A DNA stretch of 64,000 bases from Gemmatimonadota bacterium (lineage in GTDB: Bacteria; JAAXHH01), in contig VXTP01000008.1 in NCBI GenBank assembly GCA_009837395.1, positions 1 through 64,000 of the forward strand, in the 5' to 3' direction. The position numbers were made by a program, and so were the translations under genes. Numbering within the stretch: the first letter of the stretch is position 1; each line of letters opens with the position of its first letter. Of this stretch, positions 15,012 through 64,000 are shown in pieces. The notes under the pieces were generated by a model that made no database searches, was not told where the DNA came from, and saw only the letters and a list, made by a program, of their open reading frames with translations.

Positions 15012-16061
15012 ATGAGAGTATTCAGGATTCAAGCAGACAACAGGTTTGTTAATTTCAATCAATTACCTTTCAATGCTGAACATGATGAATCGACCTTGGA
15101 AGACTGGCTGGAAAAAAACACTGACAAGATTCTGGATGACAGTCGGCTGTTGGTGATAGGACGCCAGGTCCATACTTCCCTTGGTGGATCCATTGATCTG
15201 CTAGGGATAGATAGCCAAGGAGACATGGTTGTAGTTGAACTAAAACGAGACAGAACTCCACGGGAAACTGTAGCTCAGGCTCTCGAATATGCATCCTACA
15301 TAGCGGAGCTTGAGTTTGACGAACTGGAAGAAATCTGTCGTTCATACACGAAAGACGAAACACTGAATCTCACGGAGCATCATAGAGATCACTTCAGCCT
15401 CGGCACCAACATCGCGGTATCGTTCAACAAGGATCAGCGGTTGGTAATCGTAGGCCAGCAAATCTCGCCCGGGATTATAGAAACCGCTCGTTTTCTCGGC
15501 TCTAAGGGTGTACGGGTAACCTGTGTCGAGTTTACCTATTTTATATCTGAAGACGGCGAAGATCGCCTGATGACTCAGGAGACGGTAGTTGAAGGGAAGG
15601 CCGAAAAACTTACCCCATCTTCTTCCATGTCAAAACCGATCATCGACGCTGATAAACTACTCCAAGATTGCGATGAAAACAGTCGTGAGGTGTTTTCACG
15701 TTTTCTTGACTGGTCCAAAGAGAATGAAATGGCCATCAATTGGGGTTCCAGCGGATGTTCATTAAATGTGCGAATAAACAACACGAATGTCGGAGTCATG
15801 TGGATGCAGACAACTGGTTCTCCACCGAAACATTACATCTATGTCGGTTTAAAGGATAAACGGTTCGTAGGTAAAAGCGCTGTACCGGATGAGTTGATAG
15901 ACGAACTTTGGGAGAAGGGGCTATCTACAGGGGTTTTCACCCCAACGGATCAGTATCTGAAGTGTCAGGTATCTCGTAAACTTGAAGAAAACGAACTGGA
16001 TTCACTTGTTGAATACTGTAATTCCATTGCCCAGGTTATTGACAGATATGGACTGAGATGA
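15012..16061 (+). CDS. NucS-like (DUF91-type) PD-(D/E)XK nuclease domain protein
   Basis: Protein of 349 residues whose N-terminal half looks like the archaeal/actinobacterial NucS (EndoMS) catalytic domain. After a conserved WLEKNTDKIL segment comes GGSIDLLGID (Asp near residue 62), then VVVELKRDRTPRE (Glu and Lys near 77-79). These together give the D...ExK nuclease core, followed by the QALEYASYI helix. The C-terminal half (about 200-349) is a separate domain of unknown function with several conserved-looking tryptophans. Composition is markedly more AT-rich than the surrounding metabolic genes, suggesting transfer. It has no partner except a small secreted protein downstream, so it may be a stand-alone repair or defence nuclease. 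Confidence 0.72.
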   Translation: MRVFRIQADNRFVNFNQLPFNAEHDESTLEDWLEKNTDKILDDSRLLVIGRQVHTSLGGSIDLLGIDSQGDMVVVELKRDRTPRETVAQALEYASYIAELEFDELEEICRSYTKDETLNLTEHHRDHFSLGTNIAVSFNKDQRLVIVGQQISPGIIETARFLGSKGVRVTCVEFTYFISEDGEDRLMTQETVVEGKAEKLTPSSSMSKPIIDADKLLQDCDENSREVFSRFLDWSKENEMAINWGSSGCSLNVRINNTNVGVMWMQTTGSPPKHYIYVGLKDKRFVGKSAVPDELIDELWEKGLSTGVFTPTDQYLKCQVSRKLEENELDSLVEYCNSIAQVIDRYGLR

Positions 16062-25303: not shown

Positions 25304-25524
25304 GAGTTGCTCCTTGGAATCAGTGGTTTACGTTGAATCTAACTGTGGATTCTTGTCAAGATTTCGTACAGGAATGGGTGTAAAGAAAACTGTATAGCAC
25401 GACATTCAGCGCGTCAAGAGAAGATCGGAGATGGATAAAACTCCAAGAGTTCCGTGCAGATTCTGCCCTACGAAGGCAACTTGGCACCTCCCATAAAAGA
25501 GAGACTAAATCGTCATCGGCCACC

Positions 25525-25553
25525 TTGACACAGCAAGCGTTTCTAAGTTAAAT
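25525..25553 (+). promoter_or_regulatory. candidate promoter of the helicase-AlkB-methyltransferase cassette
   Basis: A consensus TTGACA (25525-25530) is followed after exactly 17 bp by TTAAAT (25548-25553). It lies 60 bp before the helicase start, inside the 309-bp AT-rich spacer 25304-25612. Nothing else is evident in that spacer. Confidence 0.5.
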
Positions 25554-25612
25554 TTACGTTAAATCAACATCCTGATTCGATTTACTCCAGTGCTTGAGAA
25601 ATGGACTCCTGA

Positions 25613-26710
25613 TTGCTTTTTCCCACCTACGACGAAATCGCAAGGGATCCCAAGCAGCTGGAAGTTTGGGAATGGCCCCTTGACAGTTCTCTTTTCGTAG
25701 TTGGACCTCCAGGCTCTGGCAAGACAACGTTGGCCGTCATGCGAGCCAATTTGACGGCTCGAGAGACAGGTAGGCCAACGGTGCTCGTTACCTACAACCG
25801 CATGTTAAGGCGTTTGATGGAGTTACATAATAAAGGAGGTTTGCATCCTGTAACCATGCATGCCTATATCGGCGACGATTATCGCAGTCGTATCGGCAAC
25901 GCCCCCCCGACTACGCACGACGATTATGGTTTCGATTGGCAATCAATTCTCGCCAGATCGCGTCAGGAGGAAATCGAACCCTATTTGTCGCATGTCGTCG
26001 TAGACGAAGGACAGGATCTCCCTTCAGGTTTTCATGCGTATCTCAGTCGTCACTGCACCCATGTTATCACGGTGTTCGCCGACGAAGACCAAGCGCTTTC
26101 GGATCGGCGCACGACATTGCTTCAAATCCAGAAATGGGCAGGTCTTGACAGACCTATAATCCTTAAACGTAATCACAGAAATCGACCGGAAGTCGCACGT
26201 CTGGCGGAACACTTCCACAGTGGGGGTCTGCCAGCGGCTTCGGTCGTTCGCGAACCATCCGGTGAACTGCCTCGCATAGAAAGGACGGAGGGAATCGGCC
26301 ACACAGCATCAAAGGTGGCGAATTGGCTAAGGGTTCGTGGAGGTTCGGTGGGTGTGATCGTCTACCAGAACGATACGGGAGAGGAAATACACCGTCAGCT
26401 TACGCAACGCCTTTCGGGTTCCCGTGTCGATGTCTATCGGCACGAGCAGAAAAACGACGCCGGAATAAACGTTCTGGAAGACGGTGTTACGGTGATAAAC
26501 AAGGAATCTGTCAAGGGGCAGGAATTTCGCTGGGTCTTCATCCTGGAACTCGAGCGGTTTATTCCCTGTTCCAGTGACACCGAACTCCGCGCAATGTATA
26601 TGATGTGCTCTCGAGCCCGCGAGAATCTCACCCTGGTATATGGACCTGCTGAACTTTCTGAAGCTGCTTTTCGGTCATTACCGGGACCAACGATCCTGGA
26701 ACATAGTTGA
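25613..26710 (+). CDS. superfamily 1 (UvrD-like) helicase-type ATPase, compact form
   Basis: 365 residues, short for a helicase but with the SF1 motifs in order. Walker A is GPPGSGKTT near residue 31, and motif Ia-like VLVTYNRMLRRLM follows. Walker B is VVVDEGQD (128-135), and ADEDQALSDRR is motif III-like. RNHRNRPEV is motif IV. Motif V is VTVINKESVKGQEFRWVFI and motif VI is MMCSRARENLTLVYG. The 1B/2B accessory domains of UvrD are essentially absent, as in many defence-associated UvrD-like ATPases. The start is TTG at 25613. It is first in a co-directional three-gene cassette of unusual, AT-richer composition. Confidence 0.82.
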   Translation: MLFPTYDEIARDPKQLEVWEWPLDSSLFVVGPPGSGKTTLAVMRANLTARETGRPTVLVTYNRMLRRLMELHNKGGLHPVTMHAYIGDDYRSRIGNAPPTTHDDYGFDWQSILARSRQEEIEPYLSHVVVDEGQDLPSGFHAYLSRHCTHVITVFADEDQALSDRRTTLLQIQKWAGLDRPIILKRNHRNRPEVARLAEHFHSGGLPAASVVREPSGELPRIERTEGIGHTASKVANWLRVRGGSVGVIVYQNDTGEEIHRQLTQRLSGSRVDVYRHEQKNDAGINVLEDGVTVINKESVKGQEFRWVFILELERFIPCSSDTELRAMYMMCSRARENLTLVYGPAELSEAAFRSLPGPTILEHS

Positions 26711-26725
26711 TCCTGGAACATAGTT
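26692..26725 (+). repeat. exact 17-bp tandem duplication across the helicase stop
   Basis: GATCCTGGAACATAGTT occurs at 26692-26708 and again at 26709-26725 without mismatch. The helicase stop TGA (26708-26710) is at the junction. The perfect match indicates a recent event. Confidence 0.92.
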
Positions 26726-26782
26726 GATGTAGTGATATAGTATTGGGGCAAACGCACAAAGGCATTCGATAGAGGTTAGACT

Positions 26783-29230
26783 TTGGCTAACGACAATCCT
26801 GGTATTCAATCTGAGCTGAATTTCGGCACCAAGCAAGAAGGCCCAGCAGCTACAGGTGACCCACCAACCACCGATGGTGCTTCTACAGGTGATAGCGCCG
26901 CGACAGACGATACCGGACAGGCAGATAACCAAATGGAGACCGCAGCAGACCAATCTTCTGCCGAGAATGAGTCTCGTGGACGCGATCTGTCGACCTCAGA
27001 AGCAGTCGTCACCTACAAGGCAAAACAGGTCGCGGCACGCTGTTTAGGATTGACCGTGCCTCACAGACGTCTGTTAGATGCCCTGCAAAATGGCTGGTTA
27101 CCTCCTCCATCTGAGGCAACAGGACATATGCTTGGGGCTGGTGTTTTCATTCGGGAACCCGGTGAACCGGGAAAACATGCAATCCTAGTTTGTCTGAAAC
27201 TTGATGTAAGGAAGTTGCCGAACCTCCCCGCTTACGTATTCCGTGATGAAGCCTGGTCCTACGCGTCACCTACCGAAACCATACTCGAGGAGGAAATGTG
27301 GTTCTGGCCGGGGATGCTGCCTACTTCCGCGATCACGGAGTTGTCCGTGCCGACAAACGAGGAACGCATACGACTCATCGGCATGGCTGATCAATTATCC
27401 AACGTGGCCCTTCCCGTAGACGTTCAAATCACGCAGGCTGAAGACGTTTTGCAGGGCCCTTTTCCACAGTGGTCACAGCAATCGACACCAAATGACCATC
27501 AAACGTTAACTGAGATACCGGCTGGGATGGATGCGATTCATGGCGCTTTGGCCATGGCGGTGTGGGCGGTTCCGCGAATAGATCCCTGGCTTGACTTGCT
27601 CGTGGCGAGTTTGTCCGACGACCAGGAACTATTGGCCGAATTAGCAGTGCGCACAGCGGCCCCATGGTGGCGTGTACCCCCATGGGTACGCGGTCAAGGC
27701 CGCAGTGAACCACTCAAGCAATCAGTACCAGAAATTGCGCAGGAAGTTCAGGATGCACTCTGGTGCGCGGCCATTGATGTATTGGGAGACACATCGGGGA
27801 ATCCAGGTAGAAATCCTCAAATCTTGGCCAAACGCATTGCCGATATGGCCCGTGATGCCGTATCCGAAAGGGTACCGAGAATCTCTGATTGGCTAGACGA
27901 TCTGTGCCGAGTTCTTCGGGCGGAATCTACAATTCGACCTAATCTGTGGTGTGATTTCCCAGTTGGATTGGCGATCCAGCTCGTGCTGGCACGTCAAGAA
28001 CCAATCACATTCAAGAATTGGCCCCGTGAACAACCGAATCTGCCGCCCAGTGTTTGGTGGTCAGCTGCGGTCCTCTGTGGATGGGGCCATGGTTACAGAC
28101 GATTGGATACCTGCTTTCGCGGCGAACCGTCACTCCAGGAAGCGCTTTCCGTTCACGCGCTACGTACGAGCTCACCCGACCATCACGGGATCGCGTGGCC
28201 GTCTATGGAGGGAAAACCCGGATGGAGAAAATCCGGGGAAGGGTTTGAATTGCTTTGGGGAAAGGTGACTATTGCCCGCAAATCGGATACTGTGCGCAGT
28301 AGATGGTACGCCGCGGATTTCTCCGACGAACGCATCAGACAGGAGGCTTTCCGTGTTGCGAAGAATCTGGGCTGGCCATGCGGACATCGTCGGGTTCGGT
28401 TGCCGTCGGAAAGCAGGATAATCGTCAAAGGTTCCTATGTCATGGAAGTAGGCGAAGGAAAGCGTTCGACTGAGATTCGAGGTGAGATGGATATTCAACT
28501 ACCATCGAATACCGAGGTTGATGAGGTACTGGATAAAAACGCCTTCCGCGAACACATCGCCAGTGCGCCCGGCAGTCTTACAGAACCTCCCGCACCGCAT
28601 ACTCCGGCGCTACATGTCGGAACGAACGCAGAGGAATCACCAAAGGATAGCACTCTCGTCCCTGGCCTTAGATACGTACCCGGTTTCCTGAACGAAGCCG
28701 AGGAGATAGAAATAACTGGAAAGATCGACGAAGATCAGGCGAACTGGAGCAATGTACTAAAGCGGCGCGTGCAACACTATGGCTGGCGATACGACTATAA
28801 AGCTGGTCAGATCGACCGGCGAATGCGCATCGGACCGCTACCGGGTTGGGCAGCGAAAATCGCCCGGCGGCTTGTCGATCAAGGTCTGGTTCCCGATGAG
28901 CCAGACCAGTTAATCGTCAACGAATACCGGGGTAAACAGGGCATAGCCAAGCACGTGGACAGCATAGCGAGCTTTAACGACTATATCGCCATGATCAGCT
29001 TGCTGGAATCCTGGGAGATGGTTTTCAGAAAGGGATTGGAAAAGCGTCCGGTCCAGCTCGAAAGAGGTAGCGCAGCTGTTATGTCAGGTCCGTCCCGAAC
29101 CCAGTGGACCCACGAGATACCTGCTAGGCAAAACGAGCTGGGGCCAATAATGCCTGACGGAAAGAGGAAGAAAGTACCGCGAGAACGCCGGCTGTCACTT
29201 ACTTTTCGTAGAGTAACGGGAAGCACGTAG
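26783..29230 (+). CDS. large protein with C-terminal AlkB-type Fe(II)/2-oxoglutarate dioxygenase domain
   Basis: 815 residues from a TTG at 26783, with AGAGG 7 nt upstream. Residues 1-70 are acidic, low-complexity and Ser/Thr-rich. Residues 75-620 are an unrecognised region with conserved-looking Trp clusters (APWWRVPPWVRGQ, PSVWWSAAVLCGWGHGYRR, RSRWYAADF). The C-terminal 170 residues are an AlkB fold. YVPGFLNEAEE opens the domain, VNEYRGKQGIAKHVDS gives the iron ligands HxD near 724-726, and WTHEIP near 775 gives the distal His. RERRLSLTFRRV carries the 2-oxoglutarate-binding arginines. The AlkB part could demethylate or hydroxylate a nucleic-acid base. Between a helicase and a methyltransferase it suggests a nucleic-acid modification or defence cassette; that role is inference. 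Confidence 0.8.
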   Translation: MANDNPGIQSELNFGTKQEGPAATGDPPTTDGASTGDSAATDDTGQADNQMETAADQSSAENESRGRDLSTSEAVVTYKAKQVAARCLGLTVPHRRLLDALQNGWLPPPSEATGHMLGAGVFIREPGEPGKHAILVCLKLDVRKLPNLPAYVFRDEAWSYASPTETILEEEMWFWPGMLPTSAITELSVPTNEERIRLIGMADQLSNVALPVDVQITQAEDVLQGPFPQWSQQSTPNDHQTLTEIPAGMDAIHGALAMAVWAVPRIDPWLDLLVASLSDDQELLAELAVRTAAPWWRVPPWVRGQGRSEPLKQSVPEIAQEVQDALWCAAIDVLGDTSGNPGRNPQILAKRIADMARDAVSERVPRISDWLDDLCRVLRAESTIRPNLWCDFPVGLAIQLVLARQEPITFKNWPREQPNLPPSVWWSAAVLCGWGHGYRRLDTCFRGEPSLQEALSVHALRTSSPDHHGIAWPSMEGKPGWRKSGEGFELLWGKVTIARKSDTVRSRWYAADFSDERIRQEAFRVAKNLGWPCGHRRVRLPSESRIIVKGSYVMEVGEGKRSTEIRGEMDIQLPSNTEVDEVLDKNAFREHIASAPGSLTEPPAPHTPALHVGTNAEESPKDSTLVPGLRYVPGFLNEAEEIEITGKIDEDQANWSNVLKRRVQHYGWRYDYKAGQIDRRMRIGPLPGWAAKIARRLVDQGLVPDEPDQLIVNEYRGKQGIAKHVDSIASFNDYIAMISLLESWEMVFRKGLEKRPVQLERGSAAVMSGPSRTQWTHEIPARQNELGPIMPDGKRKKVPRERRLSLTFRRVTGST

Positions 29231-29264
29231 AAGGATTATTGGAAACTCGTTCAGACCGTGGTAC

Positions 29265-30179
29265 TTGCGGGATTTCGGACCTGAAAGCGGCGACCCCGAC
29301 CCCGATACTGACAACGTTGCAATCAGGGATGTACTTTTGAACACGAGTAACTGTTCAACGGTCACGTTTCCATCGTGGCTTGAATCACTGAGATCAATGG
29401 AAATACTCGAAAAGGTCAGAAATGATCCTCGTACTACAGCGGACAAGATCCTTGGTGTCAGCAGATCGATCGCCCTTGACTCGGTGATCGGCAGAGGGCA
29501 GGCGGATTTCGACAGCCCTTGGGACCATCTCACTCCATACGATCGCGTACTCCTGTACGCCTACTTCAATCAGAGAGGACACTTGGAAGAGCTTGTCGAG
29601 GCGTTTCGGCAACTATTCCCAGATGGTTCTCCTCCCAACAAGCCGATAGTCGTCGATATTGGGTGTGGTCCTTGTACTGGCGGGCTCGCGTTCGCAGGAA
29701 TGTGCAAGGAAGTCAAACAGTTCGTCTATATCGGCGTGGACCGGTCGGAAGCCATGCGAGACTTTGGCGAAAGTCTTGCGGCCGCCGCGCCGCAAATGGA
29801 TCAATCCCATCGTCAGTGGGCAAGCACGTTGCCAAAAGTCGCTTGGAATGATGCCCCGGGCTGGAGACCGGTGTTCGTCATCGTTTCATACCTGCTTGCG
29901 AGTCCGACACTGGATTCTGTCGACCGGCTCATCAGGGACCTTGATGGACTACTGACAAAAATCGGGCGCGGACGGGCAACGGTGATTTACACGAACTCGA
30001 CCAACACTACACCTAACCGCCGTTTTCCTGAGTTCCGTGACGCGCTTTTCGACCATGGATTTTCGCTTTTTGCCGACGATACAGGTACAATTCCAGTTGA
30101 ACGGTCGGGTGAGACTGTACCACGCAAACTGCGATATGCCCTGTTTGATCGACCGGAGAGACGCATCTTGGAACTCTGA
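29265..30179 (+). CDS. SAM-dependent methyltransferase, class I
   Basis: About 304 residues. VDIGCGPCTGGLAFAG near residue 128 is the glycine-rich SAM loop, and YIGVDRSEAM supplies the acidic residue that binds the ribose. FVIVSYLLASPT is strand 4. No DPPY/NPPY motif of an amino-DNA methyltransferase and no Pro-Cys motif of a cytosine methyltransferase is visible, so a DNA base target is not indicated. The start is uncertain: TTG at 29265 is the first conventional codon, while AAGGA at 29231-29235 sits just before ATT codons in the same frame. It is the last gene of the helicase-AlkB cassette. Confidence 0.75.
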   Translation: MRDFGPESGDPDPDTDNVAIRDVLLNTSNCSTVTFPSWLESLRSMEILEKVRNDPRTTADKILGVSRSIALDSVIGRGQADFDSPWDHLTPYDRVLLYAYFNQRGHLEELVEAFRQLFPDGSPPNKPIVVDIGCGPCTGGLAFAGMCKEVKQFVYIGVDRSEAMRDFGESLAAAAPQMDQSHRQWASTLPKVAWNDAPGWRPVFVIVSYLLASPTLDSVDRLIRDLDGLLTKIGRGRATVIYTNSTNTTPNRRFPEFRDALFDHGFSLFADDTGTIPVERSGETVPRKLRYALFDRPERRILEL

Positions 30180-30194
30180 GAAAAACACGGGACA

Positions 30195-30221
30195 TTGGAC
30201 TTGTGATTATGTCTGTATAAT
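30195..30221 (+). promoter_or_regulatory. candidate promoter of the SMP-30 gene
   Basis: A perfect TATAAT lies at 30216-30221, with TTGGAC 15 bp upstream at 30195-30200. The spacer is short, so the -35 is tentative. It lies 33 bp before the downstream start codon. Confidence 0.4.
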
Positions 30222-30253
30222 CCAGCACGCCTTTGATGCCGGGAGGAAAGAGG

Positions 30254-31372
30254 ATGTTACTACCATTTCCACGCATTTTTCGTCCATTTCAGCAAACCGC
30301 GTCGCAGGTTGCACAAAAGTACAACATTTCGTCTGCTCTACGATTGCTCATCCTGATAGCCGTCTCTTTCGGAAACGCACCCCTCCAAGCCCAGGAAGTC
30401 GATCCGCCCTTTGGCGATCCGGAGTTCATCTCGTCCGATGCCCGCCTGGAGATGGTGTTCAATGAAGGCCTCGCCCTGACCGAAAGCCCCGCCGAGGGTC
30501 CGGACGGGATGATCTACTTCAGCGACATCACCTTCACCACGTCGGCGGGGGCGGACGGCATCGAGGCCGGCCACATCTGGCGCTTCGACCCCAGTACGGG
30601 CGAGACCACCATTTACCGGTCGCCCAGCGGGATGTCCAATGGCCTCAAGTTCGACGCCCAGGACCGGCTCATCGCCGCGGAAGGCGCCGACCAGGGCGGA
30701 CGGCGGGTGACGCGTACGGACATGGAGACGGGCAAGGCCTACATCATCGCCCACGAGTACGAGGGGCGGTCCTTCAACGCCCCAAATGACGTGGCCATCG
30801 ACGAGCAGGGACGGGTCTACTTCAGCGATCCCAAGTACATTGGCAACGAATCGGTGGAACAGCCCGTGATGGCCGTGTACCGCATCGACACGGACGGCTC
30901 GATCCACCGGATCATCACCGACGCGGGCAAGCCGAACGGCGTGGTGGTCTCTCCCGACCAGCAGACCCTCTACGTGGTCAGCAACGACAACGGTTCCATC
31001 GACCTCGGCAAGATCACCCTGGACATCCCCGTGCACAAGGGACGCATGGCCCTGCTGGCCTATGACCTGCACGAGGATGGATCCGCCACGTTCAGGAGCG
31101 TTCTCGTGGACTACCTGCCCGAGGACGGACCCGACGGCCTGGTCGTCGACGTCGAGGGCAACCTGTACGTGTCCGAGCGCGACGTGACCCGGCCGGGCAT
31201 CGCCATCCGCGCGCCGGACGGCACCGAAAAGGCCTTCATCCCCACCGGCGTGCTGCCTACCAACGTGGGCTTCGGCCGCGGCGAGAACAGCAAGATCCTG
31301 TACATCACCGCGGGTACCGGGCTCTACCGGATCCCCGTGATGAAGGACGGCTATCACCTGCCGCGGGAGTAA
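30254..31372 (+). CDS. secreted SMP-30/gluconolactonase family protein
   Basis: 372 residues from the ATG at 30254 (GGAGG 7 nt upstream). A long signal sequence ends PLQAQ near residue 47. The mature part is a six-bladed propeller with family motifs ESPAEGPDGMIYFSD (calcium-binding Glu region), NGLKFDAQDRLIAAEG, FNAPNDVAIDEQGRVYFSDP (catalytic Asn) and PNGVVVSPDQQTLYV. It closes with GPDGLVVDVEGNLYV (catalytic Asp). It probably hydrolyses a sugar lactone in the periplasm, which would complement the quinoprotein and aldonate dehydratase elsewhere in the window. Composition returns to GC-rich here, marking the right edge of the AT-richer island. Confidence 0.88.
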   Translation: MLLPFPRIFRPFQQTASQVAQKYNISSALRLLILIAVSFGNAPLQAQEVDPPFGDPEFISSDARLEMVFNEGLALTESPAEGPDGMIYFSDITFTTSAGADGIEAGHIWRFDPSTGETTIYRSPSGMSNGLKFDAQDRLIAAEGADQGGRRVTRTDMETGKAYIIAHEYEGRSFNAPNDVAIDEQGRVYFSDPKYIGNESVEQPVMAVYRIDTDGSIHRIITDAGKPNGVVVSPDQQTLYVVSNDNGSIDLGKITLDIPVHKGRMALLAYDLHEDGSATFRSVLVDYLPEDGPDGLVVDVEGNLYVSERDVTRPGIAIRAPDGTEKAFIPTGVLPTNVGFGRGENSKILYITAGTGLYRIPVMKDGYHLPRE

Positions 31373-55528: not shown

Positions 55529-58500
55529 CTATTCCTGATCTAGACTCTCGATCTTTTTCTCATTCTCACGAACAGCGGTTCTTGTAACTCCGCCATGCTG
55601 CGTAATGCGAGGACGGCATTTAACCTTAACTGCGCCTCTCGTGAATGCTTCATCTGAAGCTTTACTCGACCACACATAAGCTTCGCCTGTGTCGAGTTTA
55701 TTCATTTTTTCAGAAGTTAACTCATTTAGGGAGGCATTAGCCTTCTGAATATGCTTCAGCCAAGCCGGCGAGTTGAATTTGTGCATGATTATCTGCGATG
55801 AAAGCTCAATCAGCGAGACCGGGACCGATGGTGGGTCCTGAGAGGCTACCATGATGCTGGTTCCTTTGTGTCGCATCTCACGAACGACCTCGACCAAACC
55901 GGAAACCAAATCATCGTTTTCGATGTACTTATGTGCCTCATCAAATACTACCAGTTTGTTAAACGCGCTTCTCTGATAGGTTGCTTCTGAGAAAATCTGC
56001 AACATCACCACGAACAGACCAAGCGCCTCGTCCTTTTCAATGTACTCGTCGCGCAAATCCACGATTATCAAACGGCCCGGGCGAATTAGATCCTGTAGTT
56101 TTTGGTTGTCGTTGATGTATTCGTTAGCGAACTGAAGGCGTGTTAGGGCTAACTCTTTCAAGTGGTCGGACAAAACCGAGTTTTCAATTCCTGCTCGTAG
56201 GCTGTCTAACGTCAGGTTCTCCCTTAGACTCCTCATGATGAGGTTCATTTGCCGCAAATACATGCTCTGACTGCCAATCGCGCCCATTAAAAACTTCCAG
56301 TGAGCCGCCTTGAGTTCTGATGCAGAAAATGCAATTGGCTTAATCTCGATATCTGGGTATTCGGACCGTCTGTCATCCACCTTGTTAGCCGGTGTAAGGA
56401 TCAACACATCCCTAAGAGCCTCGGGATTAGCGTTGTAACGCTCACGAAGGATACGGATCTCGTCATCGACCGAGTTGGCCTGGATCATAGAAGTAAACTC
56501 CGGAGCATATTCCTGAGTCGGACTGTAATGGAAAATAACCGTAGCAAGTGGGCTTGGAAGTACATTGATGCGCTGAAACGGCATGGAGGCCATCTCTATC
56601 ACCGTTCCAAGGGTGTAGCTCTTGCCGCCGCCTTGTACCCCAAAAAGACTTAGCGTGTGGGTGTGGTTGAGATCCAGCGCGACCTTTCTGCCGGAAACCT
56701 CTCCGAGTAATCCAAATTGCGGTGAGTCGTCTCCGACGCCAAGTACGATGTCGTAACTGGTTTCTGCTTGAGTTGTAGCTACAGGTGCTGGATGTTCTGG
56801 GATTTCTGGCGAGGGTTCGGCAGTTGTTTCCGATTCTGCGGTTGCTCCCGGTTCACTAGCCCCGGTGGTGAGGTGTTCGACCTCTTTTCCCTCTTCAGGT
56901 GCATGCGCCAGGATTTCAGACTGTTCTTCTGATTCCTTGTGAGCGGACTCTGGTGTTTCTGCTGCATCTGTAGATGACTTTGGAATCAGTGGGGCTTCTA
57001 GCTCATCTTGCCAGCGCTCATTCACTGTCCAAGACGTTGAGCGTTCTCTCTTGGGTGCTATAAAGGTCGCCGTCTCGAGCTTCGGGACGTTCGGTATTCG
57101 TTGTTCCCTGAGAAGATACGCCGACTGTTCTTCCTCAATCTGGGATGAGACGGGTGTACGACAGCTTTCCAGCAAGGTCTGAACAAGATCCTTGCCGATG
57201 CGGTGAAATTCAATGCCCACCTCATTTTCTGGTTCCTCAGTTCCGGCCTTGTCGAAGTCGAAGATCAATGCGCAACGTCGGAACTGAAGCGAATAGCCCT
57301 GCTCTATGGTTTCGAGTAAACTTCGAGCTTCCTGAGCGGCGGTGGTGTCAAAGATCTGGTAACGCATAGAGCGCTCCAAATAGAAACGAAGGATCTGTGC
57401 TAACTCACGGCTTTTGAGCAACCTATCCGGCCGATCTGGCTTTTTAAGTTCTGGGTCGAAGTGACGCTGGAGAATGCGCTCACTCTGACCGATTTGTGTT
57501 GAAATCCGCTCCTTCAGTTGGTTGAAAGCTGCGAAGTCTCCCACCTGAGAATAGCATTTCACCTCAACCAAATTGCAGGTTATTGTTCTGGAGTTTAAAT
57601 CCAGGTCGAACAGCCCCAAGTCGGTACGGCGAAGGCTGATGGCATCATTGAAGTCATCCGACTCACCGCTCGTGCGGTAAAGGTCGGTGTGTGCATCCAG
57701 AGGAACAATGACTTGGTTGCTTAACGCGCCTTGATATTCAAGGTAGATCCGCGCCAAAGCCAGACCAAGTGCTTCAGCCTGTTGTGTGCGTGCAGAGATA
57801 AGTTTTAAAGCAAGTTGGCCAGATAGCGACCGCAGGTGTGCCAAGATTTGAACCAACTGCTCACCGTCGGCGGACAAACCGCGCTCCAGCAATACCGGCT
57901 TCAGCATCGCCTCTAGTTCATCTTTCGAGCGCGAGGAAAGGATCAGGTTATGTGTCGTCCGAGAACTGTTTCCCGGTACATAATCAATCAGGTATTCCGG
58001 TCTGTTCTTCCGTCCGCCATGGTCGAAGAACTCAATCCCCATATTACGGTCGATGGTGAATACCCAATCACTGATCTGGTGGACTTCATAGATAAGTTCT
58101 CTTTGTGCTACGTCTAGGCTAAGAGTCACGACTGGCACGGCTTTAAAGCTGGCACCAGAGGTAGCGACCGCTGAGGTAGCAAAGCATAGGTGCCGGCTCA
58201 AGTCGGACAACAAATCGAAGCACGCTGCATGGTTGTCAGTATCGAGGGGCCGTCCAACAATCGGACCGTTTCTCCAGAAGGTACCCGAGTCATCATCTAT
58301 GAATTCGGTGTCGAAATCCTGTATCAGCCCATGCAGCGAGGTTACCCCCATTGGCTTTTCGGTAATTGAAAGATCCTCAGCGGGAAATACATCAAGGAGC
58401 ATACTGATGTGTGCGGAATATCTCTTTGCATTTACCCGGAAGTCTTTCAACGCGTGCTTGGCCAAGTTCAGCTTTGAGAACAGATGACTGCCTGTTGAGG

Positions 58501-61039
58501 TAGCAAACGCATCGGCGGCCTCGTTTACCGTGGTTCCGGGACGTATCATCGATTCAAGCGCTTCACCCAAAATCGGCGAATCGGGGTCTGATGTGAAGAG
58601 TCGGATGTCATAACGCAGATCGGAATATTCGCGTTTCTGCTGGAGTGACAACAGCGCATCCGCAACCAACGATCCGGCTCCTGGGTTGAAAACGTTCAGT
58701 GACAACTCTCTCACATATGGATGCTGGGAGAGATACCGCTCAATCCTGTCTGCAATGACCTTCCCGGATATACCGTTTCCCGCCATGGTGGGCTCAGCCA
58801 ATCCCAGCGCCGTAGAGATTTCTGCCATCAGGCCACGCAAATTCTCCTCAGTTGTTGGCGCATAGAGCGCCCAGAATGCATTCAGGTTGTCGACCGGAGT
58901 AAAGATACGACCATCTTCGACTGGAACGCCAACTGGATAGGCATACGGAACAAAACCATCCAGCAGCGCGGAACGGACATGAGGGAGATGGCTTTTTCCG
59001 CCTGCTTTGATTTTTTCGATCCAATCCTTCCCCAAGGTAACCCAGTTGTTTAGCCACAAGGCGCGTAGCGGATGAGTTGGCGAGACCAGGACCGCTTCCC
59101 GATTCTTTCCGCGAAAATCTGTCAAAACGACGTGAACGGAATCAACGGCCAAAATGTCTCGTAAAGCTTGTAGGTGTTGCTGACGCTCGGTACCAGAAGT
59201 CGTCTCAGCCTGATGGCTCAGATTCCTTACCAAGTCCAGGTAGCTTTCCGCATACGTGAGGCATTCCTTTTCCGAGTCTCGGAAGGAAAGTCCCTGCATG
59301 ATAAGCTCGGTAGTGTCATTACGCACTGCTTTAAAAAACACCTCTCGAGCGGAAAGAAACGAGGCCATCGCAGCTGACGACGGTAGTGTGAGCCCGACCA
59401 CGGAAGGTGACTCGGCAGTAGCCAGATTGATCTGCATTCGACGGCCCGACAAGTGTTTGGGCTCCGCCAAGATGCGCTGTTCTATAGTCTTGAGTGCGCG
59501 CGAAAGTGGAATTTGCACAGCGCCTTCACGACTGAATTTGGCTAACAAGGTTTCTTGACGGGCGATCTTCCTCGAACGACCACCTTCACCCCACACGACG
59601 CTGTTGATGGCTATCTCGTCCGGATCGCGCTCATCTCCCAAGGCTGTAAACTGTAGCGCGAAGCGCCCGTGCTCCAGACTCTGTTCGATGGGAACTGCTC
59701 TCTGCGGCGGCTCTTCATCGATGCTTCCGCTTGGTAGAACATAGAAAGGCTCGCTTTCGTAGGAGCGTTTAGCACCATCGAAGCCGGAATCCGATTCCAG
59801 TGGAATTGGATCACAATCGGACGTCCAGGGCAGTATACGGATGTAATGCCATCCTTCCTCGAATTCGATCTTATTTAACTTAGTAAGACTGGTGCTGCAT
59901 TGCAGGCGACTAGGCGTCCAGGTTTTGACCTTCTTGGATTTACCTACAGGACCATCACTTTGAGAAATGATCTGAACCGTAAAGTGGTCGAGTCCATTGA
60001 CCTTACCAGGATGAGGTTTGACTTCAAACACCACACTCATTTTTCGGCGGTCATTGGGAACCAGAACCTGTTGTCCAATCAGGCCAGAGAATGTGTCATC
60101 AGTCTCATCCTCCTGCACGACCGGCAAGTCGGTTTCCAGAACCGTTAGCAGTACTTTGTCTAGGGAAATCTCCTCTTGGAACGTCCATTTGTCGAAAGAA
60201 ACGCCCCACCAGTTTTGGTCGGTTGCTATAGGCGGCGTCCAAAATTCCGGCTCTTGGACTTCGTATTTCTCAAAGTAGTCAAACAGGCGCGATTCCAGAG
60301 TCTTGTCCCTCAGTCCAAGATCGGCGATTCTGCCTCGAACTGACTTGTATGAGTTCATTAGATTCCGGACACAGTCGAGATTTCGACGAATCTTGCCATT
60401 GACTATGGTGGGATCGGCAAAGAGTTTGAAATCTGGAATCAATGTCAATTCATACAGACTAGCCCCGAGAGTCTCACCATCAATCCCGTTCTCGAGCGCA
60501 GTGAGTAGGTATCGCACACGGGAAACATCGTCGGCAGGAAGCCATTCCTCTTCGTTGAGAAAAGTCAATAGATCACGTACATGACCGACCAGCGATGCAG
60601 GGAGCCGATCAAGCAGCGAGTCTATGAGGTCCTGGTAGATATCGGTGAATGTCAGTTCTTCGAAGGTCGCTATTCCAAATGAATCTTCAGCGCTGGTGCG
60701 AAGCGAGGTTGGTATGAAGACCAGCAAAGGCTGACGTAGTTCGCCGTTTACGTCAGGATTACGTAGTTCAACGAGTTTGGTGGAAGTGACTCGGAGGGGT
60801 TGATCCTCATTGTCCTGACTGGCTAGTATAAAGATGTTTCGATCGGGTTGGTTTCGGCGTAGTTCCTTGCATGCTGATTCCATCACATCGTAATCGAGAT
60901 CGGTAACTCGCATGCAATGACCTGGTCCACGTTCACCCAGAATCGCTTCGATACGAGGGCACAGTAGGCAAGCAATCGCTGCGTTCAGTTTATCCTTGGA
61001 AAGCTCGCTAAACTCGTTACTCAATTGCACCTCTTCCAC
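55529..61039 (-). CDS. DptH-like HerA-family ATPase with internal PD-(D/E)XK-like motif
   Basis: 1836-residue protein starting at a GTG 4 bp after the upstream stop. Residues 1-300 are an N-terminal domain with LLVFIPTSLRTSAEDSFG near 105. The long middle is unrecognised. TDLGLFDLDLN then VEVKCY (about 1140-1162) reads as the Asp...Glu-x-Lys core of a restriction-endonuclease fold. An acidic, Pro/Glu-rich linker (about 1340-1420) leads to a HerA/FtsK ATPase domain: GVQGGGKSYT near 1470 (Walker A), then LVVFDEAHKYIE near 1698 (Walker B), and MVASQDPPSVP (sensor). Size, architecture and operon position fit DptH of phosphorothioate-dependent restriction; membership in another HerA defence family is possible. 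Confidence 0.68.
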   Translation of the reverse strand: MEEVQLSNEFSELSKDKLNAAIACLLCPRIEAILGERGPGHCMRVTDLDYDVMESACKELRRNQPDRNIFILASQDNEDQPLRVTSTKLVELRNPDVNGELRQPLLVFIPTSLRTSAEDSFGIATFEELTFTDIYQDLIDSLLDRLPASLVGHVRDLLTFLNEEEWLPADDVSRVRYLLTALENGIDGETLGASLYELTLIPDFKLFADPTIVNGKIRRNLDCVRNLMNSYKSVRGRIADLGLRDKTLESRLFDYFEKYEVQEPEFWTPPIATDQNWWGVSFDKWTFQEEISLDKVLLTVLETDLPVVQEDETDDTFSGLIGQQVLVPNDRRKMSVVFEVKPHPGKVNGLDHFTVQIISQSDGPVGKSKKVKTWTPSRLQCSTSLTKLNKIEFEEGWHYIRILPWTSDCDPIPLESDSGFDGAKRSYESEPFYVLPSGSIDEEPPQRAVPIEQSLEHGRFALQFTALGDERDPDEIAINSVVWGEGGRSRKIARQETLLAKFSREGAVQIPLSRALKTIEQRILAEPKHLSGRRMQINLATAESPSVVGLTLPSSAAMASFLSAREVFFKAVRNDTTELIMQGLSFRDSEKECLTYAESYLDLVRNLSHQAETTSGTERQQHLQALRDILAVDSVHVVLTDFRGKNREAVLVSPTHPLRALWLNNWVTLGKDWIEKIKAGGKSHLPHVRSALLDGFVPYAYPVGVPVEDGRIFTPVDNLNAFWALYAPTTEENLRGLMAEISTALGLAEPTMAGNGISGKVIADRIERYLSQHPYVRELSLNVFNPGAGSLVADALLSLQQKREYSDLRYDIRLFTSDPDSPILGEALESMIRPGTTVNEAADAFATSTGSHLFSKLNLAKHALKDFRVNAKRYSAHISMLLDVFPAEDLSITEKPMGVTSLHGLIQDFDTEFIDDDSGTFWRNGPIVGRPLDTDNHAACFDLLSDLSRHLCFATSAVATSGASFKAVPVVTLSLDVAQRELIYEVHQISDWVFTIDRNMGIEFFDHGGRKNRPEYLIDYVPGNSSRTTHNLILSSRSKDELEAMLKPVLLERGLSADGEQLVQILAHLRSLSGQLALKLISARTQQAEALGLALARIYLEYQGALSNQVIVPLDAHTDLYRTSGESDDFNDAISLRRTDLGLFDLDLNSRTITCNLVEVKCYSQVGDFAAFNQLKERISTQIGQSERILQRHFDPELKKPDRPDRLLKSRELAQILRFYLERSMRYQIFDTTAAQEARSLLETIEQGYSLQFRRCALIFDFDKAGTEEPENEVGIEFHRIGKDLVQTLLESCRTPVSSQIEEEQSAYLLREQRIPNVPKLETATFIAPKRERSTSWTVNERWQDELEAPLIPKSSTDAAETPESAHKESEEQSEILAHAPEEGKEVEHLTTGASEPGATAESETTAEPSPEIPEHPAPVATTQAETSYDIVLGVGDDSPQFGLLGEVSGRKVALDLNHTHTLSLFGVQGGGKSYTLGTVIEMASMPFQRINVLPSPLATVIFHYSPTQEYAPEFTSMIQANSVDDEIRILRERYNANPEALRDVLILTPANKVDDRRSEYPDIEIKPIAFSASELKAAHWKFLMGAIGSQSMYLRQMNLIMRSLRENLTLDSLRAGIENSVLSDHLKELALTRLQFANEYINDNQKLQDLIRPGRLIIVDLRDEYIEKDEALGLFVVMLQIFSEATYQRSAFNKLVVFDEAHKYIENDDLVSGLVEVVREMRHKGTSIMVASQDPPSVPVSLIELSSQIIMHKFNSPAWLKHIQKANASLNELTSEKMNKLDTGEAYVWSSKASDEAFTRGAVKVKCRPRITQHGGVTRTAVRENEKKIESLDQE

Positions 61040-61043
61040 TTAC

Positions 61044-62702
61044 CTATTCTGTCTTTTCCCCGATCGCATATCGAGGCGATACCTTCTGGGCGACAAAAGC
61101 ATCCGACAGATCTTCGTAGAATCCAATTTCACGTAGACGACGCTTGAAGGCTTCAAGGTTGAAGCGCAAGGCACGTCTGTCAAGAATGCTGCTGTTAGTC
61201 TGGGCCCCTTTCGGCAACTGTTCGATGTGAATACCGTACCGGTTTCTTAGAAAAACCAACAACTCCTCGATGCGGATCTCACGGGTCACAAAGCGCCCAT
61301 CGGCCTGGGTGAGTACGGCCACCTGAAGCAGTACTTCCAGTAGCTTACTACCAAGCACAAACCTTCGTGGACTTCCCTTAGTACGGGACTGGGCTAACAT
61401 GCCGTTCTCTTTGTTTTTCAGCAGAAGAGAATCCAAACACTCGGTGATGTACTGGTGGTGATACTTACCGCGATACGCCATCAGGATTTCTATGAAGGAC
61501 TCGAATTCATCAAGCCCCATAGAGGAAACCTCCCTGATTTCCGGATCAACGTTCTCATTCCCAGAGGTGGACTCCTCGATTAGGCTGGCCAGACGAAATC
61601 TAAAGTAGGCTTGCCGTTCAGCCTGATGCTCGGGTTTCAATAAAGCCACCAGATCGCTGACGCTAAACTCGCCACCTTGGGGCGATTCGAGCTTGCTTGC
61701 CTTTTTCTTGAGGTATTCGGCCATCTCATCGAGCTTCTTTACGACGTAATTCGCCTGCACATAGGCCGGGATCTGACGATAGAAACGGTCTGTAGACTTA
61801 CGAGCCAATTCGGCCATATGCTCATTGTTGACATCCCCCATGTCCACGATCAGTACCACCCGATAGGGACAGCATGTCATAACGTTGTTGAGGTCAGAAT
61901 TGACCGGACATTCCTTGGTGGTGCAGAGATCATCGCATGAGCGCTGTTTTACCAGTTTGGGCAGCATCTGTAACAGCTTGAGGTGATAGAGCGCCAGATG
62001 GAATGCCATTAGCGTTTTAAGGTAATCCACTAGCACTGAACGCGGAACGTAGGGTTCGTAGGCCAGAAGTCGTAGAATGTCGTCAGACATGATATCTGCC
62101 TGGCCGATACACAGCGGTCGGAAACGTGAAGGCTCCTTGGAGTCTTTCATGTCCTGGGTAACTTGGTGATCTAGGCGCAGGATGGCCTGGGTTTCCACAT
62201 CCACTGATGCGTTTGGGTCGTATCGGTCCGTCACCAAGTCGATTCCTGGGAAAAAGAAGCGCTTCAGGGCGTCTCGCACTGCTTGACCTTTGCCTTTACG
62301 AGCGTAGTAAAGCATCCAATATATCTGCTCGGCTGTACCGTAATCACGCGTATGCCGAGCATTGCGGAACTTATAGGTGTTTCCATGCAACGGCCTTGGG
62401 GCGGCAAGCGCCTGATTACTCTTCCCACGATTGACCATGTCCATCAGATCAGTCTCGATCCAGGCACGGGTGATCTCAGAATGCTTGTCAAACCCTGAGA
62501 ACCACTCTGGATGCTCAAGAAAATCCGCTAGAAACTCTTCGACCGTGAGATCCCTGCCACGCGGAGGCCTACGACTTGCATATCCGTCCCATTTTAGGCG
62601 CGGAAACAGCATCGTTAGGACGCGATCCATCTCGATATGCTTGAAGTCGACATACGTAACCTTAGGGATTCTGAACTCCCTGTCGCGTCCCTTAATTGGC
62701 AT
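61044..62702 (-). CDS. cysteine-containing middle protein of the HerA operon (DptG position)
   Basis: 552 residues from the ATG at 62702, which overlaps the end of the upstream gene by 11 bp; the next gene starts 4 bp after its stop, so all three are coupled. Its sequence is mostly helical. At about 285-310 a cysteine cluster (CDDLCTTKECPV, then CCPYR 12 residues on) suggests a zinc or iron-sulfur site, directly before a hydrophobic strand VVLIVDMGDVNNEH. The C-terminus is basic and looks like a winged-helix region (IRIEELLVFLRNRYGIHIEQL). I do not recognise the family from its sequence; the DptG suggestion rests on gene order only, and it is longer than typical DptG. Confidence 0.6.
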   Translation of the reverse strand: MPIKGRDREFRIPKVTYVDFKHIEMDRVLTMLFPRLKWDGYASRRPPRGRDLTVEEFLADFLEHPEWFSGFDKHSEITRAWIETDLMDMVNRGKSNQALAAPRPLHGNTYKFRNARHTRDYGTAEQIYWMLYYARKGKGQAVRDALKRFFFPGIDLVTDRYDPNASVDVETQAILRLDHQVTQDMKDSKEPSRFRPLCIGQADIMSDDILRLLAYEPYVPRSVLVDYLKTLMAFHLALYHLKLLQMLPKLVKQRSCDDLCTTKECPVNSDLNNVMTCCPYRVVLIVDMGDVNNEHMAELARKSTDRFYRQIPAYVQANYVVKKLDEMAEYLKKKASKLESPQGGEFSVSDLVALLKPEHQAERQAYFRFRLASLIEESTSGNENVDPEIREVSSMGLDEFESFIEILMAYRGKYHHQYITECLDSLLLKNKENGMLAQSRTKGSPRRFVLGSKLLEVLLQVAVLTQADGRFVTREIRIEELLVFLRNRYGIHIEQLPKGAQTNSSILDRRALRFNLEAFKRRLREIGFYEDLSDAFVAQKVSPRYAIGEKTE

Positions 62703-64000
62703 TGTAGTCAATTCCTTTGTCCGAAACGCTCATCTGAAGCAAACCGTCGTCATGACGATGGATTTCGTAAAACTTGTGCCCCGTCGTAGTTAGCAATACC
62801 TCTTGGTAGGGCATCGAGGCCAAGCGGTTTTTGAAGACGGTGAGACTCAGGTAGAAGCCTTCTTGTTCCTCGACACTTGGGCGATAACCGAAGTTGAGCC
62901 GCATCAGCATTTCATAAATATCGAGATTGATACGCAGGCTGGCCTTGTGTCCTTCCCCAGAGTCGTATAGCAACATCAGGGCTTGAGAAAGGCACTCGAG
63001 AAATGGATGCGCCACTGAGTCTTTTTCGGTACGGAGTGTGAAACGGTTGCCTTCAAACAGGCGGTAACTACGGATCGTTCCCTTATCTACCTGGCGGACA
63101 CGAAGGGCTAATTGATTGCCTAGTCGCACTGGATCGCTCAATCCTTCGCCCCGATTGATGGCGCGGAGAATAGCTGTAACCTCTTGGGCACTTTTTGTTC
63201 CTGACTTGTTAATTGCGTCGAGAAAGGGATTGATGCTTCTGTAAGGCAGCATCTCTTTCCATCCGCTGTCGCGTCGCTCAAAGTAATGGCGACGTCGCGT
63301 GTGTGAGAGGTAGTTTCGATGTTTGGCGATCTGGCGCAGGTTATTCTTCGAAGTGTAACCTCGTGGTAGTTTGTGAAACAACGATTCCAACAGCTCTTCA
63401 TCATACCCAGTTCTTTCGGCGAAAGAAAAGCGACTTACAACATTAGTCTTAGGGTTGAGGAACTCAAGTTCACGATCTAGATCGGGGTTGCTGACTTCTG
63501 CGACATCTATCTCGCGAAGCAGGGAAATCAGACGGTCAATGGAGCCTTTTGCACCGCCAAGCCATGAATTGAAATAAAAACCGTCAAGGATGTTATTCTG
63601 ATTCTCTTCGCCGCTGTTTTTATAAAGCTGGTGAATACCGTCACAGTCCCGCGTGCCCACCAGCATGAAGGCCAGTGCTGAACGTAGGTCACGCATAGTG
63701 ATGTGTAATCGGCCGCGCAGGTGGGTGATTGTGTAAAGCGTCTTCAGTCGTTCGAGCACCTTGGGGCCAACAACCGGATCCTGGAAGGTCCGGGCATTAT
63801 GGTAGGAATAGCACTTGGCTTTGAGGTCGCACTTTTCGCAAGCCAGCCAGTAATCACGCTGCGTCATGCGAGCAATGAGACGCTCCAGAATCGAAGGTTG
63901 ATCTTTATCGAGTTCGGCGACCACTGAGCGCAGGTTGAGGTTGATGACCACAATCCCACCTTCGGGAGCTGCTCCGGACAGTCCCTGCTGGATCTGCTTT
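62692..64000 (-). CDS. DptF-like ATPase-associated protein, 5' end cut by the window
   Basis: The frame is open to base 64000, so the N-terminus, where a P-loop would be expected, is missing. The visible part starts with PEGGIVVINLNLRSVV, which looks like an ATPase core strand. A zinc-type CEKCDLKAKC motif and HLRGRLHITMRDLRSALAFML follow. The C-terminal RINLDIYEMLMRLNFGYRPS segment recalls the DptF tail as I remember it. It is first in the visible operon, with the second gene's start overlapping its stop. DptF is the best guess; a related defence ATPase is possible. Confidence 0.6.
   Translation of the reverse strand, partial: KQIQQGLSGAAPEGGIVVINLNLRSVVAELDKDQPSILERLIARMTQRDYWLACEKCDLKAKCYSYHNARTFQDPVVGPKVLERLKTLYTITHLRGRLHITMRDLRSALAFMLVGTRDCDGIHQLYKNSGEENQNNILDGFYFNSWLGGAKGSIDRLISLLREIDVAEVSNPDLDRELEFLNPKTNVVSRFSFAERTGYDEELLESLFHKLPRGYTSKNNLRQIAKHRNYLSHTRRRHYFERRDSGWKEMLPYRSINPFLDAINKSGTKSAQEVTAILRAINRGEGLSDPVRLGNQLALRVRQVDKGTIRSYRLFEGNRFTLRTEKDSVAHPFLECLSQALMLLYDSGEGHKASLRINLDIYEMLMRLNFGYRPSVEEQEGFYLSLTVFKNRLASMPYQEVLLTTTGHKFYEIHRHDDGLLQMSVSDKGIDYNAN

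Follow-up and report, generated by a model that had tools for sequence, protein, structure and literature searches.

A mobile cassette of a compact SF1 helicase, an ALKBH8-type dioxygenase fusion and a METTL17/Rsm22-like methyltransferase in a Gemmatimonadota genome

What brings a compact helicase, an AlkB-type oxidative enzyme and a methyltransferase together in a stretch of otherwise metabolic genes, and do the three form a system? The question was raised by a 64,000-nucleotide stretch of a Gemmatimonadota contig (VXTP01000008.1; hereafter, the window), in which a sequence-only reading had proposed a cassette that edits or senses modified nucleic acid. The three genes are present as that reading had them, all on the forward strand and with short spacers (72 bp between helicase and fusion gene, 34 bp between fusion and methyltransferase gene; Table 1), and Pfam domain matches upheld the identities given to the three proteins. 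They are flanked by a MATE-like transporter/aminotransferase pair on one side and an SMP-30-like lactonase/transporter pair on the other. The break in composition that had been described, an AT-richer segment within GC-rich metabolic DNA, was likewise confirmed, with 52-54% GC (GC3, 52-55%) in the cassette genes compared to 64-65% (GC3, 85-90%) in the two flanking genes.

Table 1. Positions of the cassette genes and associated features in the window
Feature	Position	Strand	Basis
Aminotransferase gene, left neighbour of the acquired segment	24041-25303	-	Conserved flank
Horizontally acquired segment, borders approximate	25430-30377	.	Similarity to empty-site sisters
Promoter-like TTGACA-18-TAAATT, 59 bp 5' of the helicase start	25525-25554	+	Consensus, 10/12
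Compact SF1 (UvrD-like) helicase/ATPase, 365 aa	25613-26710	+	ORF list, Pfam
Fusion protein, 815 aa, with C-terminal ALKBH8-type dioxygenase	26783-29230	+	ORF list, Pfam
Dioxygenase domain of the fusion protein, ALKBH8-type 2OG/Fe(II)	28655-29227	+	Sequence comparison
Class I SAM methyltransferase, METTL17/Rsm22 fold (predicted), 304 aa as longest ORF	29265-30179	+	Pfam, predicted structure

TTG is the start codon of all three genes in the list of open reading frames; for the methyltransferase, the true start is probably the TTG at 29337 rather than 29265, giving a protein of 280 aa, since its relatives start at about that position. The single good promoter claimed for the cassette stood only in part: the promoter-like sequence matches the consensus well and is well placed 5' of the helicase gene, but such sites were found at chance level (4 found vs 3.5 expected from shuffled DNA), and its role as a promoter is unproven. 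At 26690-26735 the 3' end of the helicase gene is duplicated, with gatcctggaacatagttgat occurring twice in tandem across the stop codon.

To find relatives, we used profiles of the helicase or of the N-terminal domain of the fusion protein. The three genes were adjacent at seven loci, the window included, of which six are intact and one (L061, in G476) has a frameshifted methyltransferase; an eighth (L062, in G501) retains only decayed remnants of the helicase and fusion genes. The remaining loci lie in a genome of the same genus (G010, L007), an uncultured member of the Pseudomonadales (L008), a 92-kb IMG/VR contig (L017), G625 (L060), and G954 (L064). Identity to the window proteins is about 50-56% for the helicase, 38-47% for the fusion protein, and 49-55% for the methyltransferase. 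In the window's genus the helicase gene comes first, followed by the fusion and methyltransferase genes; elsewhere the methyltransferase gene precedes the helicase and fusion genes, and there stop and start codons overlap at most loci. The neighbourhood search that had been suggested thus recovered the same set in two gene orders, and the singly scattered homologs that would have spoken against a cassette were not seen: all intact relatives of the central protein adjoin the other two genes, and no unlinked intact copy of its N-terminal domain was met. This kept linkage, at six intact loci and the frameshifted one, rules out chance neighbours or an ORF artefact, and comparison of six helicases, six dioxygenases, and five methyltransferases showed every catalytic motif to be invariant. 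With these motifs intact, the three genes are a unit that is conserved and moves horizontally. They are also rare, occurring in 2 of 12 genomes of the genus, in 4 of 371 genomes in the sampled order of G016 (one copy decayed), and in 2/355 and 1/398 genomes of wider samples, with G016 itself included in every count; a further match in a wider sample (E 5.6e-4) was a CobS-like false positive. None of the three proteins matched any of 50,697 phage records, and the reading as a phage gene was rejected on this basis; scans of the viral_contigs sets A3 and A4 gave nothing, and A2, A8 and A11 all lead to one contig for the cassette.

Horizontal acquisition between conserved metabolic genes is supported by eight sister genomes of the genus, in which the site is empty and the aminotransferase and SMP-30 genes lie about 330 bp apart. 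The acquired segment takes the place of about 330 bp, among them the start of the SMP-30-like gene (its 5' end and signal-peptide codons). Similarity to the empty site is regained on the left at 25316 (weakly up to about 25430) and on the right at 30377. Both occupied genomes of the genus share the insertion borders as far as they can be placed, the left one close to the promoter of the SMP-30 gene and the right one within its signal-peptide codons. The cassettes of these two genomes are 47-56% identical in protein and about 29% at fourfold sites, compared to 87-98% and 73-86%, respectively, for the flanking genes, and their GC contents are 53% and 45%. Since the cassettes have diverged and their synonymous sites are randomised whereas the flanks are conserved, sequence comparison indicates that versions of the cassette were independently acquired or swapped at one site in the genus; vertical inheritance with fast evolution is ruled out by the saturated fourfold sites. 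In both genomes the 5' end of the SMP-30-like gene has been replaced by unrelated sequence (window 30233-30420; L007:13908-14010), including its promoter and signal-peptide codons, and its expression signals and signal peptide are therefore changed. Elsewhere, the copy on the IMG/VR contig adjoins a TrwB-like T4SS coupling protein, that of the Pseudomonadales member adjoins tRNA-Ser and a truncated integrase, and those of G625 and G476 lie within a queA-tgt-yajC-secDF operon and between metH and nfuA, respectively.

The helicase carries the Pfam domains AAA_19, Viral_helicase1, and UvrD_C_2, and its PDB matches are UvrD and HelD. Walker A (GPPGSGKT), Walker B (VDEGQD), motif V (NKESVKGQEF), and the motif VI region (MCSRAR) are invariant in the six cassettes, as in an SF1 UvrD-like enzyme. 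In PADLOC it gave a partial, generic match to GajB (about 1e-10). Its closest plasmid relatives, from Deinococcus, Streptomyces, and two Photobacterium plasmids, are all encoded directly 3' of DrmA-DrmB, as is the next-best match among 398 Pseudomonadota genomes (G233); where scanned, PADLOC scores in these loci reached 1e-204 for DrmA and 4e-84 for DrmB.

The fusion protein consists of a low-complexity acidic N-terminus, a conserved domain at about residues 86-620, and the C-terminal dioxygenase (Pfam 2OG-FeII_Oxy_2, 4e-20, residues 668-809 of 815). The sequence-only reading had called it an AlkB fusion, which held for the dioxygenase and could be sharpened, since the domain is of the ALKBH8 type and not the E. 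coli AlkB repair type. The iron ligands H724, D726, and H777 (the HxD...H triad) and the 2OG-binding R803/R809 (Rx5R) are invariant in the six cassettes compared, and the domain is closer to ALKBH8 than to ALKBH2/3 or E. coli AlkB, both by sequence (ALKBH8, 1.6e-19; ALKBH2, 0.016) and by profile (2.7e-31 vs 4.5e-5). We found no RRM domain in the cassette. The AlphaFold model of the N-terminal domain was unusable (pLDDT 48). Compared with the protein encoded after the helicase in DrmA-DrmB loci, however, the domain scored 38.5 in hhalign, with 100 column shuffles scoring at most 20, and, leaving aside families that the same profile had selected, this protein ranked first of about 145 real ones. 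Considering that the E-values from single-profile HMMER for the same pairing, 0.003-0.02, do not surpass that of a spurious CobS-like match (L025), this kinship is no more than suggestive.

The methyltransferase matches a Pfam SAM methyltransferase family and, weakly, Rsm22 (1.5e-5, above the Rsm22 cut-off); its PADLOC match, C3a159 (1.4e-9), is partial and generic. In its predicted structure (pLDDT 71), the top six matches, in a PDB ranking drawn from Foldseek hits only, are METTL17/Rsm22 proteins, with Z scores of 17.1-19.2 over 240-257 residues and the next fold at 15.9, which places the model in the METTL17/Rsm22 fold. Motif I reads DIGCGPCTGG. The motif-IV position (SYLLASPTL) reads SYLLAS in place of a DNA-methyltransferase motif IV (DPPY, NPPY, or PCQ). 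The cysteine ligands of the METTL17/Rsm22 Fe-S cluster are also absent, each protein having 2-4 cysteines with none invariant outside motif I, and METTL17/Rsm22 proteins may themselves be binders rather than active enzymes. A further match in G183 (L029), with transport/siderophore-like surroundings, looks like an unrelated class I methyltransferase and was set aside.

Is the cassette a known system? The earlier reading, which knew of no described system with this set, agrees with our searches: no system in PADLOC, Pfam, or NCBIfam matches the three genes, and we found no description in the literature searched (AlkB with defence, DISARM, Rsm22), most subscription papers lying outside its reach. 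It is not DISARM, as Pfam and PADLOC found no DrmA or DrmB (DUF1998) in the three proteins and the flanks are metabolic; nor Gabija, as the GajB match is partial and the three proteins include no GajA (OLD-family nuclease); nor MADS (mad1-8), to which there are only weak generic matches (mad2, 6e-5; mad8, 5e-6), genuine mad7/mad8 homologs lying apart from the cassette at 55.5-62.7 kb. ARMADA type II is a defence operon with several helicases, a GajB-like UvrD enzyme among them, and a methyltransferase (PMC12458937), but the defining ARMADA genes are absent among the three, the cassette lacks YprA-, BrxHII-, and PglX-like proteins, and it has a dioxygenase, of which the paper makes no mention.

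The nearest likenesses are partial. The DISARM-type loci compared (Deinococcus gobiensis P4, the Photobacterium plasmids, G233, and, up to the helicase, Streptomyces fungicidicus p1) share the same compact helicase family (28-31% identity along most of the helicase), and in all except Streptomyces a hypothetical protein follows the helicase directly; unlike them, the cassette lacks DrmA, DrmB, and a PLD gene, carries a dioxygenase fused to the partner protein, and has a methyltransferase in addition. The methyltransferase has exactly three plasmid relatives, all in Picosynechococcus (pAQ5, pAQ6, and a PCC 7003 plasmid) and each followed directly by an ALKBH8-type gene, with about 25% identity for the methyltransferase and 38-40% for the dioxygenase. 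Unlike the cassette, this pair is preceded by a P-loop kinase/WYL protein, and at L005 neither the compact helicase nor the N-terminal fusion domain was found beside it. Since the pairing occurs on all three plasmids, the methyltransferase-ALKBH8 pair is probably a module of wider spread than the cassette. Eukaryotic ALKBH8 unites the same type of dioxygenase with a methyltransferase in one chain; there, the methyltransferase is of the Trm9 type, whereas that of the cassette is METTL17/Rsm22-like, and the cassette adds a helicase. Hydroxylation of mcm5U in tRNA is the hallmark activity of the ALKBH8 type.

The surroundings are in part those of defence genes. A putative MADS/Ssp-type defence locus, cut by the end of the window, occupies an AT-richer island on the reverse strand (55532-63951). 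It encodes a homolog of mad7 (2.6e-114), a protein resembling SspF, and one of 1836 aa that has a DndH-like stretch and, at its C-terminus, a mad8/HerA-like ATPase. A single low-GC gene on the forward strand (15012-16061), nuclease-like and matching PADLOC PDC-S11 (1.2e-42), would be an isolated defence-candidate insertion. In the sister genome G008, a five-gene cassette (L037:7049-13315; HATPase-like, STAS-like, MBL-fold, E1-ThiF+JAB fusion, and patatin-like) lies a few kb from the equivalent site, on the far side of the aminotransferase and MATE genes; it seems that different conflict cassettes have entered the gaps between genes around this metabolic cluster. Of the three Picosynechococcus pairs, two have type III-B CRISPR genes as neighbours, and the third has a reverse transcriptase and an Abi gene nearby. 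In G625, G476, and G954, the cassette sits among housekeeping genes with no evident defence island.

An ALKBH8-type dioxygenase together with a METTL17/Rsm22 fold lacking motif IV points to RNA rather than DNA, although, with good repair of etheno adducts in DNA reported for the Rhizobium etli ALKBH8 (PMC4051686), a DNA substrate is possible. Our preferred reading, to which we give a little less than an even chance, is that the cassette is a mobile anti-phage or anti-plasmid (conflict) system that modifies nucleic acid, probably RNA. We infer its defence function and substrate from the protein families, mobility, and company, the conflict role in particular because the cassette is mobile and keeps defence-type company. 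In such a system, the ATP-driven helicase and its partner, the N-terminal domain of the fusion protein, would recognise or open a nucleic-acid structure that is damaged or associated with an invader. Recognition would license successive reactions of the methyltransferase and dioxygenase at an RNA base, which would be methylated or esterified and then hydroxylated or demethylated, by analogy with the two halves of eukaryotic ALKBH8 on wobble uridine. As a result, translation would be blocked in infected cells, or RNA damage inflicted by the infection would be reversed. The more specific proposal that phages or plasmids are kept from propagating by infection-triggered, ATP-gated hypermodification of RNA bases (METTL17-like methylation with ALKBH8-like oxidation, in RNA of the invader or in tRNA/rRNA of the host) seems to us rather unlikely.

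Other roles could conceivably account for the same genes. ALKBH3 works with the ASCC3 helicase in alkylation repair, and the cassette could similarly be an acquired stress-resistance module, in which the AlkB domain removes methyl or etheno adducts from DNA or RNA opened by the helicase. The catalytic residues are intact, no second AlkB gene (PF13532) occurs in the host genome, and the R. etli activity cited above is of this kind. However, the methyltransferase is a constant partner with no role in repair, the other relatives of the helicase sit with DrmA-DrmB, and canonical bacterial ALKBH8 proteins repair poorly, an Agrobacterium mutant being insensitive to both MMS and chloroacetaldehyde (PMC4051686); we consider repair unlikely. 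A DNA modification-restriction system, with the methyltransferase marking host DNA, the dioxygenase stripping or oxidising foreign marks, and the helicase as restricting motor, would fit the occurrence of helicase kin with DISARM-type DrmA-DrmB and the familiar restriction set of helicase, methyltransferase, and modification sensor. It is nonetheless very improbable, given SYLLAS where a DNA-methyltransferase motif IV would stand, a fold closest to METTL17/Rsm22, and no nuclease gene or domain found by Pfam or PADLOC in the cassette proteins.

The enzyme types would equally suit a housekeeping-type tRNA/rRNA modification module that spreads by transfer and has no defence role, for example in tuning translation under stress, and the copy in the queA-tgt-yajC operon does adjoin a tRNA-modifying gene. 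Yet the very patchy distribution in the genus and in the sampled order of G016, the repeated replacement at one site, the copy on a mobile element, and a helicase family common to DrmA-DrmB loci argue against such a role, which appears decidedly unlikely. As for the chemistry, bacterial ALKBH8 was inactive on tRNA-Gly(UCC) in Agrobacterium; the authors of that study favour RNA modification, and the physiological substrate of bacterial ALKBH8 proteins is still an open question (PMC4051686). With its helicase and METTL17-like methyltransferase, the mobile operon described here gives these proteins constant genetic partners, and the substrate question therefore becomes testable with three defined genes and modified nucleosides. 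If the cassette is defensive, it would represent immunity based on a dioxygenase and RNA modification, unlike the systems modelled in PADLOC, and would tie the helicase module of DrmA-DrmB loci to a non-nuclease enzymatic effector; if immunity by RNA hypermodification were true, bacterial ALKBH8 enzymes would gain their missing biological role.

Two further gene arrangements came to light. On the Picosynechococcus plasmids (L005, L015, and L016), the P-loop kinase/WYL protein forms a three-gene unit with the METTL17-like methyltransferase and the ALKBH8-type dioxygenase, and this unit looks like a second undescribed ALKBH8 system. At four loci (L011, L013, L014, and L055), none of them with an annotated PLD (drmC) gene, DrmA-DrmB is followed by the compact SF1 helicase and then an unannotated protein of 470-580 aa, and a fifth (L012) matches this layout up to the helicase; these loci are apparently a variant of DISARM.
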